DNA of 64,000 nt. Origin: an uncultured Clostridia bacterium (GTDB lineage Bacteria > Bacillota > Clostridia > Oscillospirales > Ruminococcaceae). The stretch covers positions 1 to 64,000 of the forward strand of contig CALWNQ010000014.1 in assembly GCA_944382875.1 (NCBI GenBank), read 5' to 3'. Position numbers and translations under genes: made by a program. A model generated the notes under the pieces. The model was not told where the DNA came from, did not search any database, and saw only the letters and a list, made by a program, of their open reading frames with translations. Of the stretch, positions 48,876-53,004 are shown piece after piece (position 1 is the stretch's first letter; the number at the start of each line of letters is the position of its first letter).

Positions 48876-49166
48876 ATGTCGAAATTGTATCAGCGAATTT
48901 ATGAGATTGTACGGCAGATTCCGCCGGGAAAAGTTGCTACCTATGGTCAGATTGCATTGCTTGCTGGAAATCCGCGCCTTTCTCGGGTGGTTGGGTATGC
49001 GCTGCATATTGCTCCTGATGATGTTCCTTGTCACCGGGTTGTGAACCGCAAAGGGGAAACAGCAGTGACTTTCCTGCAGCAACAGAGCCTTCTTGAACAG
49101 GAAGGAATTTGCTTTACTGCTGACGGCAGAGTGGATCTGCGGCTGTATGGCTGGCATTTGCTGTGA
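48876..49166 (+). CDS. MGMT-family DNA repair protein, alkyltransferase-like layout
   Basis: A 96-residue protein consisting only of the DNA-binding domain of O6-alkylguanine transferases: IPPGKVATYGQIALLAGNPRLSRVVGYAL holds the recognition helix and Arg finger, and VPCHRVVNRKG the active-site motif. The C-terminal LLEQEGICFTADGRVDLRLYGW is typical of alkyltransferase-like (ATL) proteins, which flag O6-alkylguanine for excision repair and have Trp or Ala in place of the Cys. Here the Cys is kept, so it may still transfer alkyl groups. The start at 48876 follows AGGAG. Confidence 0.85.
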   Translation: MSKLYQRIYEIVRQIPPGKVATYGQIALLAGNPRLSRVVGYALHIAPDDVPCHRVVNRKGETAVTFLQQQSLLEQEGICFTADGRVDLRLYGWHLL

Positions 49167-49275
49167 TTTTTTAAGGCTTTTGTATGTAAAAATTGAATCG
49201 GAACGGCAGAGATTTCTTCCTCATACAATAGGGCAGCAGGATTCATCCTGTATTACCGATTAAGGGGGAGATTCA

Positions 49276-49716
49276 ATGTGTTGTCATTGCGGAAAATGCT
49301 TCTGTTGCGGCTGCCAGCATGAGCAGGAAGCGGTAGAACAAAATATCGGGTGCGGTTGTGAGAATACTGTGCAAACACAGGAAGAAACATGTCCAGACTC
49401 TGAAAATAAACAGCATGGTTGTGGATGTTGGAACTGTGGATCCAACTGCAGGCGTGATTATGATTACGCTTATGATGTTGCAACTTCTGATTCGGTTTCC
49501 TGTTCAGGCTGTATGTCTGGCTTAAATTCCAATTGCGATGATCCGGATGTCCCGGTTTACCATTGCGGCGGGGGATGTTCCCGAAGCAAGTGCCGGATTT
49601 GCTGCGATCAGAACGGTTGTTGCCGTGTTTATCCGTGCAGTTGGCGCAATTCTTACTGGCCAGAATTTGCACATCCGAGATGGCTTTGCTGCCGGGATTT
49701 GTACAACGTGAGATGA
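49276..49716 (+). CDS. Orphan cysteine-rich protein (27 Cys in 146 residues)
   Basis: I do not recognise this gene. A strong ribosome site (AAGGGGGAG) eight bases before the ATG and a terminator just after the stop show it is expressed. The protein opens MCCHCGKCFCCGC and continues with Cys pairs in C-x-C, C-x2-C and CC spacings across its full length (GCGCWNCGSNC, CSGC, CGGGCSRSKCRICC, NGCCRVYPC, WLCC). It has no signal peptide or hydrophobic helix. The spacing suggests metal binding or disulphide cross-linking, as in metallothionein-like or spore-coat proteins; neither is proven. A TACAAT at 49224-49229 may be its -10 box. Confidence 0.75.
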   Translation: MCCHCGKCFCCGCQHEQEAVEQNIGCGCENTVQTQEETCPDSENKQHGCGCWNCGSNCRRDYDYAYDVATSDSVSCSGCMSGLNSNCDDPDVPVYHCGGGCSRSKCRICCDQNGCCRVYPCSWRNSYWPEFAHPRWLCCRDLYNVR

Positions 49717-49717
49717 C

Positions 49718-49750
49718 AAAACACCCGTCCGTATTGGACGGGTGTTTTTC
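49718..49750 (+). terminator. Terminator of the cysteine-rich gene
   Basis: ACACCCGTCC pairs with GGACGGGTGT around a 5-base loop, followed by TTTTC. Confidence 0.93.
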
Positions 49751-49877: not shown

Positions 49878-52253
49878 TCATTCATAATCCATTAATAAGT
49901 CAAGAACTAACAAGCACATTCCTGCCAAGGAAAACAAGAGAATCAGCCATACAACCCAAGCAAAGCTATATGGAGAGCCATCCACAGACATTCCCTGTGT
50001 CGCGCAAAGGGATACGGCGTGGAAAAGTGGAAAAAAGCTAAGCCATTCAATCCCATTTTCCATACCGGAGAGCGCCAATAAACTTGGCAGGCAGAAAATT
50101 GTTGCGGAAATAAAAGAGGTTGTCAAAGAATGTCCCATTTTCTGCCCAAGCCACAATGAAATAAGCCCCATTCCCATACATGCTGCGAAACGGCAGATGA
50201 AACAGAAAAGAAGAAGATCGCTCAGGGTAAAGCAGGACGGGATATTCTCAAAATCAGAGATACTCATGGTGGGGGCGAACATAGCCGGAAGCCCATAGTC
50301 CCGCAGAATTTGATACAAATGGGGAATGGAAGCTACCAGGGTGATGGCAACAGCCCCAATACCGCTTTGCAGCAGTTTCATTTGAACGGTTTTGCTGCGA
50401 CCCCTGGGTGTGCAGCGGAGGATCACCTCCATACCGCTTTTTCGTTCCATAGCGAATAGGCCGGAAAAGCAGAAAGCGCATAAAAGGCCGGCGTAGAGGG
50501 TATCATACAAAGCTGTATTTCCATTCAGACCGAACAACCGGCGATAACCGGTTTCATACACCAGCCAGGCTTTGGGATGCTCTTTCAAATAGAGATTGAT
50601 GTTATTTTGAATGATCCGGGTGTAAACCTCGTATTTTTGCTGCAACGGCGCGTATTCCGCCAGAGCATACTGGCTGAGCTTCCCGGCGGCAATTTTCCGC
50701 TGCGTTTCCAGCATCGGCGAAAACTCTTCTCCAAACCGAAAAATTTTGTTATAACTTTCCGACGTCCAGGGACCGGAAAGCAAATTCATATAATTGGCGT
50801 AATAAATTTCCTCGGCATCCCGATAATTTTCGGATGTTCCCGTTTGGCAGATGTTCCAAATGAAAAAACCAATCAGTAAAATTGCCGCGCCGTTCATCCA
50901 AAACAGCTTTTTCCCCTCTTCCTGAAATATGGTGACAGGATGTGTTTGATGAGGAATCGGAAAAATTTTTCCGCGTATAGGAGAATGGGAAAGTTTTGCT
51001 TTGGAAAACAGCAGACAAAAGGCAATCCCAAATGTAAGCCCGAAAAGAACAGCCGTAGTCCATTCTACAAAAGGAAGGGAAACCGGTCTGCCAAACCAAT
51101 CCAAATCCCGATAGATTCCCAACAACTCATTGGTTTGCAGCAAGCTGGCAAGGTTGGCGTATTTGATCACACTGAGCTTTCCGGTGGCGGGAATCATCCA
51201 TCGAATTCCGTACATGGCCAATGGAAGCGCTAATGCGCTGATCCAACCGGCTGCCATATTCCGGGCAGCCAGCATGGCAGCCATGACCCATAAACCCATT
51301 ACCAAGATGCCAGCCCATTTTGCCAACAAAAACAGCCCCAAATATTGTCCCACGGTGATTTTCATGGTGCATCGCATCAAAGCGGGAACACTTTGAATGC
51401 TGCGGGAAAGGGGTCCCAATCCAAAAGTAACGCCGCAATACGCCAAATTGACGCCATAAAGCAGCAGCAAAATGGCCAACAAGCTGATCCCAAAAGCCCC
51501 GAGCTTGGCAGCAGCGGTGAAAAGGCACCCTCTTGGTAATGTACGAATCAAACCCAAAAGCCCATGATCCCGTTCCTGCCGCACCAAAAGCATAGCCAAA
51601 AGCGCGGTGGCAGCCAGCAAAAACAAATCGGTAAAAGCGTAGGAAATGGCGGTGTACAGCCCTTTCTGAGGGGAATAATCAATTGGAATTTCTTGCAGAT
51701 TCTCATAAACCGCAGCTGTCCGCAGAATACTTTCCCGTTCAAAATCCGATTGTTCATTCTGGAAAATGGACAGTCCCGAAAGCCGCACCGCCTTTTCCTG
51801 CACCTCTTTCAAAAATCCGGAATAGTTGGCGACAACATCGTATTCCCCCGTTAATTTATGATATAAAATGTAATCGCCCGTCAAACTGCCAGTAGATAGA
51901 GAATAATCGTGTTCCAAATACCGCTGCTCATAGTTTTGAAACAACGCTTCATTTTGTTCCCGGTATCCCAGCCAGGCAGGATTTTCATTGGCGGATTCCC
52001 GAAAAAACTGCTCCATTTTCAAAAGTCCTTCCGCGTCGGCATAACGGGAATGCAGCAGTTCGCCCTTTTCTTCCATAGTTAGGGGGGATAGTTCCGCCGC
52101 CGCTCTGCGATAAGCGGAAGCGGTGGGCTGATTTGCGGCGGGACGGGTGCCGGTCCAAAGCAAAAAGAGATTGGCGAAGGCTAGGATGGCAAGCAGCAGC
52201 AAAAAGGTTCGGTTTCCCCAAATTTTCCGCATCTCGGCAAGAAACAACCTCAT
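49878..52253 (-). CDS. Large ABC exporter permease, internally duplicated (ABC-2 type fusion)
   Basis: A 791-residue membrane protein, about twice the length of a usual ABC-2 permease. Each half has one helix, a large outside loop of about 150-190 residues and about five helices. The repeat is visible: LLVRQERDHGLLGLIRTLPRG (about residue 222) matches FAMERKSGMEVILRCTPRG in the second half, and the openings MRKIWGNRTFLLLLAI and EEGKKLFWMNGAAILL match. The gene therefore looks like two permeases fused end to end, making a complete channel in one chain. Its ATG overlaps the stop of the ATPase gene (ATGA). The substrate is unknown; the nearby sensor kinase suggests export of or response to an envelope-active compound. 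Confidence 0.88.
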   Translation of the reverse strand: MRLFLAEMRKIWGNRTFLLLLAILAFANLFLLWTGTRPAANQPTASAYRRAAAELSPLTMEEKGELLHSRYADAEGLLKMEQFFRESANENPAWLGYREQNEALFQNYEQRYLEHDYSLSTGSLTGDYILYHKLTGEYDVVANYSGFLKEVQEKAVRLSGLSIFQNEQSDFERESILRTAAVYENLQEIPIDYSPQKGLYTAISYAFTDLFLLAATALLAMLLVRQERDHGLLGLIRTLPRGCLFTAAAKLGAFGISLLAILLLLYGVNLAYCGVTFGLGPLSRSIQSVPALMRCTMKITVGQYLGLFLLAKWAGILVMGLWVMAAMLAARNMAAGWISALALPLAMYGIRWMIPATGKLSVIKYANLASLLQTNELLGIYRDLDWFGRPVSLPFVEWTTAVLFGLTFGIAFCLLFSKAKLSHSPIRGKIFPIPHQTHPVTIFQEEGKKLFWMNGAAILLIGFFIWNICQTGTSENYRDAEEIYYANYMNLLSGPWTSESYNKIFRFGEEFSPMLETQRKIAAGKLSQYALAEYAPLQQKYEVYTRIIQNNINLYLKEHPKAWLVYETGYRRLFGLNGNTALYDTLYAGLLCAFCFSGLFAMERKSGMEVILRCTPRGRSKTVQMKLLQSGIGAVAITLVASIPHLYQILRDYGLPAMFAPTMSISDFENIPSCFTLSDLLLFCFICRFAACMGMGLISLWLGQKMGHSLTTSFISATIFCLPSLLALSGMENGIEWLSFFPLFHAVSLCATQGMSVDGSPYSFAWVVWLILLFSLAGMCLLVLDLLMDYE

Positions 52254-53004
52254 TTTCCATCCTCCTCGCCAAAAATATGCAGGTAGACCTCTTCCAATCC
52301 TTTTCCGGGCGCATACCGTTCAATCAGCGTTGGAACCGGGGCAATATCCACCACTTGGCCGGAACGAAGCAGGATCACCTGATTGGCGACGGTTTCCATA
52401 TCGGAAACTACATGGGTGGCAACTAGAATGATCCGCTCTTTCGCCATACCGGATAAAAGGTTCCGCAGACGGACTCGTTCCTTGGGGTCCAGTCCCGCAG
52501 TGGGTTCATCCAGAATCAGCAGCTTTGGATCCCCCAGCAGCGCGGACGCCACCAAAAGCGCTGCTTCATGCCGCCGGAATACGCAGTCAGCCGTTTGTCC
52601 AGTTCCGTTTCCAAATGGACCGCCGCGGCAACACGAGAAACCTCACCAGCGGTATTTTTGCGTGGAATTTCCTTTAAGGCCGCCAAATAAGCTAAAAATC
52701 TGCGCCCGGTGTAATTGGCGTAAAGACTTTGCTGCTGGGGCGCATACCCAAGAATGCGGCGAAACTGGATTCCTCGCGCCGGCCGGTGATTCCAAAGCAC
52801 CTGTCCCGCATCGGCGGCAACCCCGCTGGTAATGATTCCAATTAGGGTGGACTTTCCCGCGCCATTGGGTCCTAAAATTCCATAAAGTCCCGGCGTCAGC
52901 GTCATGGAAATCCCATTCAGCACTTTTTTTCGTCCTTTTCCCGGAGTCGAATATGTTTTTTCCAAATAATTTATGTCCAATTGTGGTAATGTTTTCTGTT
53001 CCAT
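52250..53004 (-). pseudogene. ABC transporter ATPase interrupted by a one-base frameshift
   Basis: The first part (53004 to about 52555) encodes the Walker A loop GPNGAGKST (about residue 47) and ends in the signature SGGMKQR. The second part, in another frame (about 52555 to 52250), continues VASALLGDPKLLILDEPTAGLD (Walker B and D loop) and THVVSD (switch His). The join falls at CGCTTTTGG on the minus strand (about 52552-52560). One extra T in the T4 run would restore SGGMKQRFLVASALL and a 251-residue BcrA/CcmA-type ATPase. The cause may be a real mutation, phase variation in the T-run, or a sequencing error; no standard slippery heptamer is seen. AGGAGGGC precedes the start. Confidence 0.88.

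Follow-up and report, generated by a model that had tools for sequence, protein, structure and literature searches.

A gene at positions 49276–49716 on the forward strand of a 64,000-nucleotide stretch of an uncultured Clostridia bacterium (contig CALWNQ010000014.1; the whole stretch is referred to here as the window) encodes a 146-residue protein with 27 cysteines and belongs to a genuine family, restricted in lineage, whose members are probably spore-layer proteins made late by the mother cell. Its members share a conserved C-terminal segment, and many of them carry an upstream element that reads as a sigma-K-type promoter and lie beside spoIIGA. With a probability of roughly 75%, we take the protein to be a structural component of the endospore coat or exosporium, a late sigma-K product of the mother cell that is cross-linked by disulfides. 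The tie to sporulation comes from the promoter, the spoIIGA/sigE neighbourhood and the presence of other cysteine-rich genes in the spoIIGA flank.

The open reading frame (ORF), stop codon included, has exactly the coordinates, length and cysteine count given by an initial annotation made from the DNA letters. Cysteine makes up 18.5% of the protein (27/146; pI 5.2), in keeping with the high cysteine content of the cysteine-rich late spore-layer class, and other open stretches of 146 codons, in all six frames of the window, reach 14 cysteines at most. The cysteines, in C-x-C, C-x2-C and CC arrangements, are distributed along the whole chain of the window copy (19 before residue 103 and eight after it), as the annotation had it; across the family this does not hold, only the C-terminal segment being conserved. 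Inspection by eye shows no hydrophobic signal peptide, in agreement with the earlier description. The ribosome site also described there is present as the Shine–Dalgarno sequence AAGGGGGAG (49262–49270, forward strand), ending five nucleotides before the ATG, and so is a terminator-like hairpin followed by a T run 3′ of the stop codon (49726–49744, forward strand), although the latter taken alone is weak evidence, because three such sites were found between 48800 and 50000 against 1.2 expected.

The protein is composed of two parts. Residues 1–102 (49276–49581, forward strand) form a variable cysteine-rich N-terminal part with 19 cysteines, and residues 103–146 (49582–49713, forward strand) form the conserved segment, which contains CCDQNGCC and SYWPEFAHPRWLCCRDLY and matches the family profile at E 9.6e-25, a value that holds by construction, the window copy being in the profile. 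In the family this segment spans about 40 residues, with the consensus RxCCDxNGCCxxYPxxCRNxFWPxFxHPRWLCCxxLY. Invariant in a 42-row alignment are R, W, P, F and P, and C, H, L, C, L and Y are conserved in at least 90% of rows; [FY]WPxF occurs in all 58 members, WPxFxHP in 53 and CCD in 38. Ahead of the segment, members have 19–181 residues with 0–42 cysteines. Members have a median length of 112 residues and a median cysteine content of 16.8% (range 3.2–27.4%), with 2 to 50 cysteines each and no conserved spacing outside the C-terminal segment; their start codons were picked by script from Shine–Dalgarno strength, and a few may be wrong.

Pfam and NCBIfam, which we presume to hold models of CotY/CotZ-type proteins, gave no match to the window protein up to E 10, and no PDB sequence matched it; eight other members had no Pfam match up to E 1. 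Membership of a family known to these collections was set aside on these searches, and the initial annotation was right for these three collections in finding no family for the protein. A full-length structural model has a mean predicted local distance difference test score (pLDDT) of 52.7, with 10-residue block means of 67–81 only from about residue 91 on, and the C-terminal segment modelled alone (pLDDT 66.6) adopts a β-hairpin and a short helix. These low-confidence models suggest a β-hairpin with little order elsewhere in the protein. All 34 Foldseek matches had E values above 0.001, and none of 22 chains that were re-aligned reached Z 2.

The protein had been called an orphan, which the homologues overturn: 58 distinct members were collected (the window copy, 53 loci of numbered G genomes and four genome contigs), almost all of them in a single family of gut bacteria of the Oscillospiraceae type. 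Among 100 genomes of relatives, the bacterium’s own included, 17 matched at E 0.01, some weakly (the weak rows for G083 and for a second match each in G036 and G051 were set aside). The C-terminal-segment profile matched 53 of 396 genomes of the bacterial family, of which two, judged spurious on reading, were dropped before later counts (G391 and G520; loci L098 and L099, E 1.3e-4 and 4.6e-5); the remaining 51, among them the bacterium’s own and those of its six congeners, have one match each. In an order-wide sample, 7 of 295 genomes matched, namely the own genome, three of the same family and three of one other family (G068, G092 and G112), and in a class-wide sample the own genome alone (1/391). 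Since these searches scored no more than 17–24 candidates per genome, misses are possible. A scan of genome contigs gave nine related loci, one from Candidatus Merdivicinus faecavium (Oscillospiraceae at NCBI). Loci L002, L005, L008, L009 and L010 are duplicate contigs of G genomes and were counted once only. Plasmids gave no match at E 0.01, and of five stretches in viral contigs that fit a pattern none was confirmed as a family member, so that a plasmid or viral gene was set aside.

Selection is purifying in the pairs tested. Between the window copy and the same-genus member L053, the proportions of differing synonymous (pS) and non-synonymous (pN) sites over the last 45 codons are 0.76 (saturated) and 0.11, and the ratio of non-synonymous to synonymous substitution rates (dN/dS) is 0.20 for the pair L116/L117. 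The initial annotation had proposed a profile search across Clostridia, with a chance frame as the reading to adopt should homologues be lacking everywhere and a transcript be absent; the search gave homologues, and these together with the purifying selection rule the chance frame out.

Upstream of the gene is CATACAATA (49222–49230, forward strand), a sigma-K/sigma-E-type −10 element of the family pattern CATAnnAT(A/G), and the AC of a sigma-K-type −35 element, placed by alignment on the −10, lies at 49203–49204 (forward strand). Within 150 nucleotides of the start, the −10 pattern occurs in 44 of 57 members and in 14 of 586 control genes, which are genes called mechanically at the same loci; once AC 15–18 nucleotides before it is required as well, the figures are 34/57 and 4/586 (L052, with less than 100 nucleotides upstream, was excluded). 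Fisher P values for the excess (6e-44 for the −10 alone, 8e-37 with AC) overstate independence because the members are related. When the 40 sites with enough upstream sequence were aligned without using the −35, 33 had C at −18 and 26 had A at −19, with 24 having the two side by side; at −17, 37 had C or A, and 30 had G at −1. In Clostridioides difficile, AC marks sigma-K and ATA marks sigma-E promoters (PMC3789822). The gap in the family promoters is 15 nucleotides, and the 5- and 10-nucleotide blocks of Bacillus subtilis sigma-K promoters are 14–16 nucleotides apart (PMC517825).

The second line of evidence is the neighbourhood, for which neighbouring genes of the 58 loci were grouped by protein clustering. 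A SpoIIGA-like cluster is represented at 30 loci, at 27 of them immediately upstream and divergent, at two as the second gene upstream and at one downstream. A SigE-type sigma-factor cluster is represented at 34, a looser count because other sigma factors were drawn in; both clusters occur at 28 loci and at least one at 36. Three SpoIIGA representatives match TIGR02854 below its cut-off (E 1e-44 to 1e-47) and one matches PF03419 above cut-off (E 1.5e-60), and a sigma representative matches TIGR02835 (SigE) above cut-off.

Viewed from spoIIGA, the upstream flank was followed in 50 loci (the best 30 matches and 20 more, 18 of these from genomes in which no member had been detected). Six flanks hold clear members (L153, L154, L157, L158, L160 and L161) and one a diverged member (L176, with FWPEFALPR). 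Three hold cysteine-rich genes that lack the motif: L144 (69 residues, 14 cysteines; genome G360), L147 (142 residues, 34 cysteines; G403) and L171 (83 residues, 12 cysteines; G016). L159 (G007) holds a 116-residue protein with a cysteine-rich tail. The AC-CATAnnAT(A/G) promoter precedes the genes of L144, L171, L176 and L159 and is absent at L147; these five proteins have no Pfam match and a single weak NCBIfam match, far below cut-off. No such gene was seen in the other 39 flanks, which have other ORFs or none, though the search was simple and short genes may escape it.

The bacterium itself has sporulation genes: its genome encodes SpoIVA, SpoIIGA with an adjacent SigE-like gene, and a SigK-like factor scoring 289.8 bits on TIGR02846, below the cut-off of 298.65, as was also the case for the B. 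subtilis control. SpoIVA was found in 340 of the 396 family genomes. Of the 51 genomes that carry the segment, 45 have it, and the six others are all less than 90% complete; among good-quality genomes (completeness of 90% or more, contamination of 5% or less), the counts are 37/37 with the segment and 224/246 for the others.

Several observations weigh against a role as a sigma-K-driven spore-layer protein. The SpoIVA co-occurrence hardly discriminates and is weak evidence, and at least 345 of the 396 family genomes have no detected copy; as 340 have SpoIVA, sporulation in itself does not require the protein. Cysteines are scarce in two members (two in L045 and four in L089), a strict −10 element is missing in 13 of 57, and the window copy and its six congeners do not lie beside spoIIGA. 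A promoter scan of the own genome gave 16 matches against 14 in a reversed control, without enrichment, and its exact pattern misses the window’s own promoter, which has G after AC. One of the scan’s matches lies just before a gene that, by eye, resembles dpaA/spoVFA.

These points leave room for other readings of the cysteine-rich chain. The initial annotation had offered metal-storage and redox roles beside the spore coat; promoter and gene neighbourhood strengthen the last, and the 2–50 cysteines per member with unconserved spacing weaken the other two. A metallothionein-like protein of sporulation, storing or buffering metal in the mother cell or spore, would suit the 27 cysteines in C-x-C, C-x2-C and CC arrangements and would fit the sporulation timing equally well. 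Metallothioneins would, however, be expected to keep their metal-binding cysteines at fixed spacing, and in this family the number and spacing of N-terminal cysteines vary, conservation is strongest at W, P, F, R and P and at only a few cysteines, and no Pfam or NCBIfam model matches; we consider this reading unlikely.

That the frequent neighbours spoIIGA and sigE are part of the sigma-E switch might instead point to a sigma-E-driven mother-cell assembly or regulatory factor. Its chances appear slim, the −35 element having AC in place of ATA (33 of the 40 sites have C at −18, and one has ATA nearby) and the proteins varying in length and composition like structural filler. Lastly, promoter and neighbours could both mislead, the protein being a redox or otherwise unrelated vegetative one: 13 of 57 members are without the promoter, and 22 of 58, the window copy among them, are without the spoIIGA/sigE neighbourhood. 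Against this stand the excess of the promoter over controls and its presence in the window copy and in others away from spoIIGA, which make such a coincidence very improbable.

We infer dependence on sigma-K, location in the spore, docking and disulfide cross-linking as parts of the favoured structural reading. On this reading, sigma-K would drive late expression of the gene in the mother cell. The conserved C-terminal segment would serve for docking, to the protein itself or to an assembly partner, and disulfides between the variable cysteine-rich N terminus and adjacent chains would harden the layer.

A further feature lies at the predicted 5′ end of the mRNA, where a hairpin of six pairs, one of them G–T, with the loop TTCA is predicted at 49236–49251 (forward strand; fold −9.2, z −1.58). 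Rfam, searched with the window, gave no known structured RNA at its gathering threshold. Taken from 13 nucleotides after the start of CATA, leaders of 43 members have a mean folding z of −1.58 (19 below −2), compared with −0.21 in control leaders (27/300 below −2). A perfect Watson–Crick stem of at least five pairs starting in the first five bases occurs in 21 of 44 members, being absent in 23, and in 38 of 586 control leaders; 200 shuffles gave a mean of 1.67 members with such a stem and at most six. Of the control genes with CATAnnATR, 1/14 has a perfect stem, five of these leaders being too short for a fair test. The leaders of L144 and L171 also fold such hairpins and that of L176 hardly does. 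Close relatives (L116/L117 and L039/L040) share stems, and between genera the stem sequences differ while the position is kept, for which reason an operator is thought an unlikely explanation of the inverted repeat. Features that protect mRNA include 5′ stem-loops, one case being the aprE leader of B. subtilis, whose stem-loop is a determinant of mRNA stability (PMC7509114); by analogy the family hairpin, here predicted and at a predicted start site, may be a stabiliser.

More tentatively, and on the doubtful side of even, the spoIIGA–sigE flank could be a hot spot where single-copy, sigma-K-driven genes for cysteine-rich spore-shell proteins replace one another, with the 5′ hairpin, kept by position and pairing, stabilising late mother-cell transcripts and FWPxFxHPRWLCC acting as a new docking module.

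Elsewhere in the window, a gene (38288–38073, reverse strand) encodes a 46-residue protein with 12 cysteines, in which a Gly/Asn/Cys-rich tail follows a hydrophobic stretch, and has a putative sigma-K-type promoter, ACA-N16-CATAGTATA, a Shine–Dalgarno sequence and a terminator-like end. The protein has no Pfam or NCBIfam match, and resembles the proteins that NCBI calls ‘chorion class high-cysteine’. Directly upstream of the 27-cysteine gene is a short MGMT-like gene (96 residues; 48876–49166, forward strand; methylated-DNA–protein methyltransferase model TIGR00589, 48.4 bits with a cut-off of 46.4), and downstream is a 791-residue ORF in the opposite orientation. An ABC transporter ATPase (52250–53004, reverse strand) appears to be divided between two ORFs that overlap but differ in frame, and is therefore frameshifted or affected by a sequencing error.

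Spores are thought to carry many anaerobic gut bacteria between hosts, and in the open-licence PMC literature we found no paper on cysteine-rich spore-layer proteins of these gut bacteria. It has been proposed that diverse, unrelated cysteine-rich proteins armour spores across spore formers (PMC7333573). The present family is an independent candidate for that proposal, which its recognisable motif, promoter and genomic address make testable in these bacteria; the position-conserved 5′ hairpin provides a second, separately testable claim, on late sporulation mRNAs.

Among known systems, CsxA, ExsY and CotY are unrelated cysteine-rich proteins that form disulfide-linked arrays (PMC7333573). CsxA, of Clostridium sporogenes and the C. 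botulinum group I, resembles the family in its richness in cysteine (25 residues) and is a protein of the spore outer layer that self-assembles with disulfide cross-links (PMC7333573); it differs in forming a proven two-dimensional crystal, whereas the window family is known from sequence and is likened to it by description. CdeC and CdeM of C. difficile are cysteine-rich exosporium proteins of a clostridial spore former, with 9% and 8.7% cysteine compared, again by description, with 18.5% in the window protein (PMC7677010). CotY/ExsY of the Bacillus cereus group and CotZ-type coat proteins are likewise cysteine-rich and assemble a spore layer (PMC7333573, PMC7677010), and the window protein stands apart from them in matching no Pfam or NCBIfam model. 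The protein would work like CsxA, CdeC and CotY/ExsY, a likeness of composition and of proposed role.
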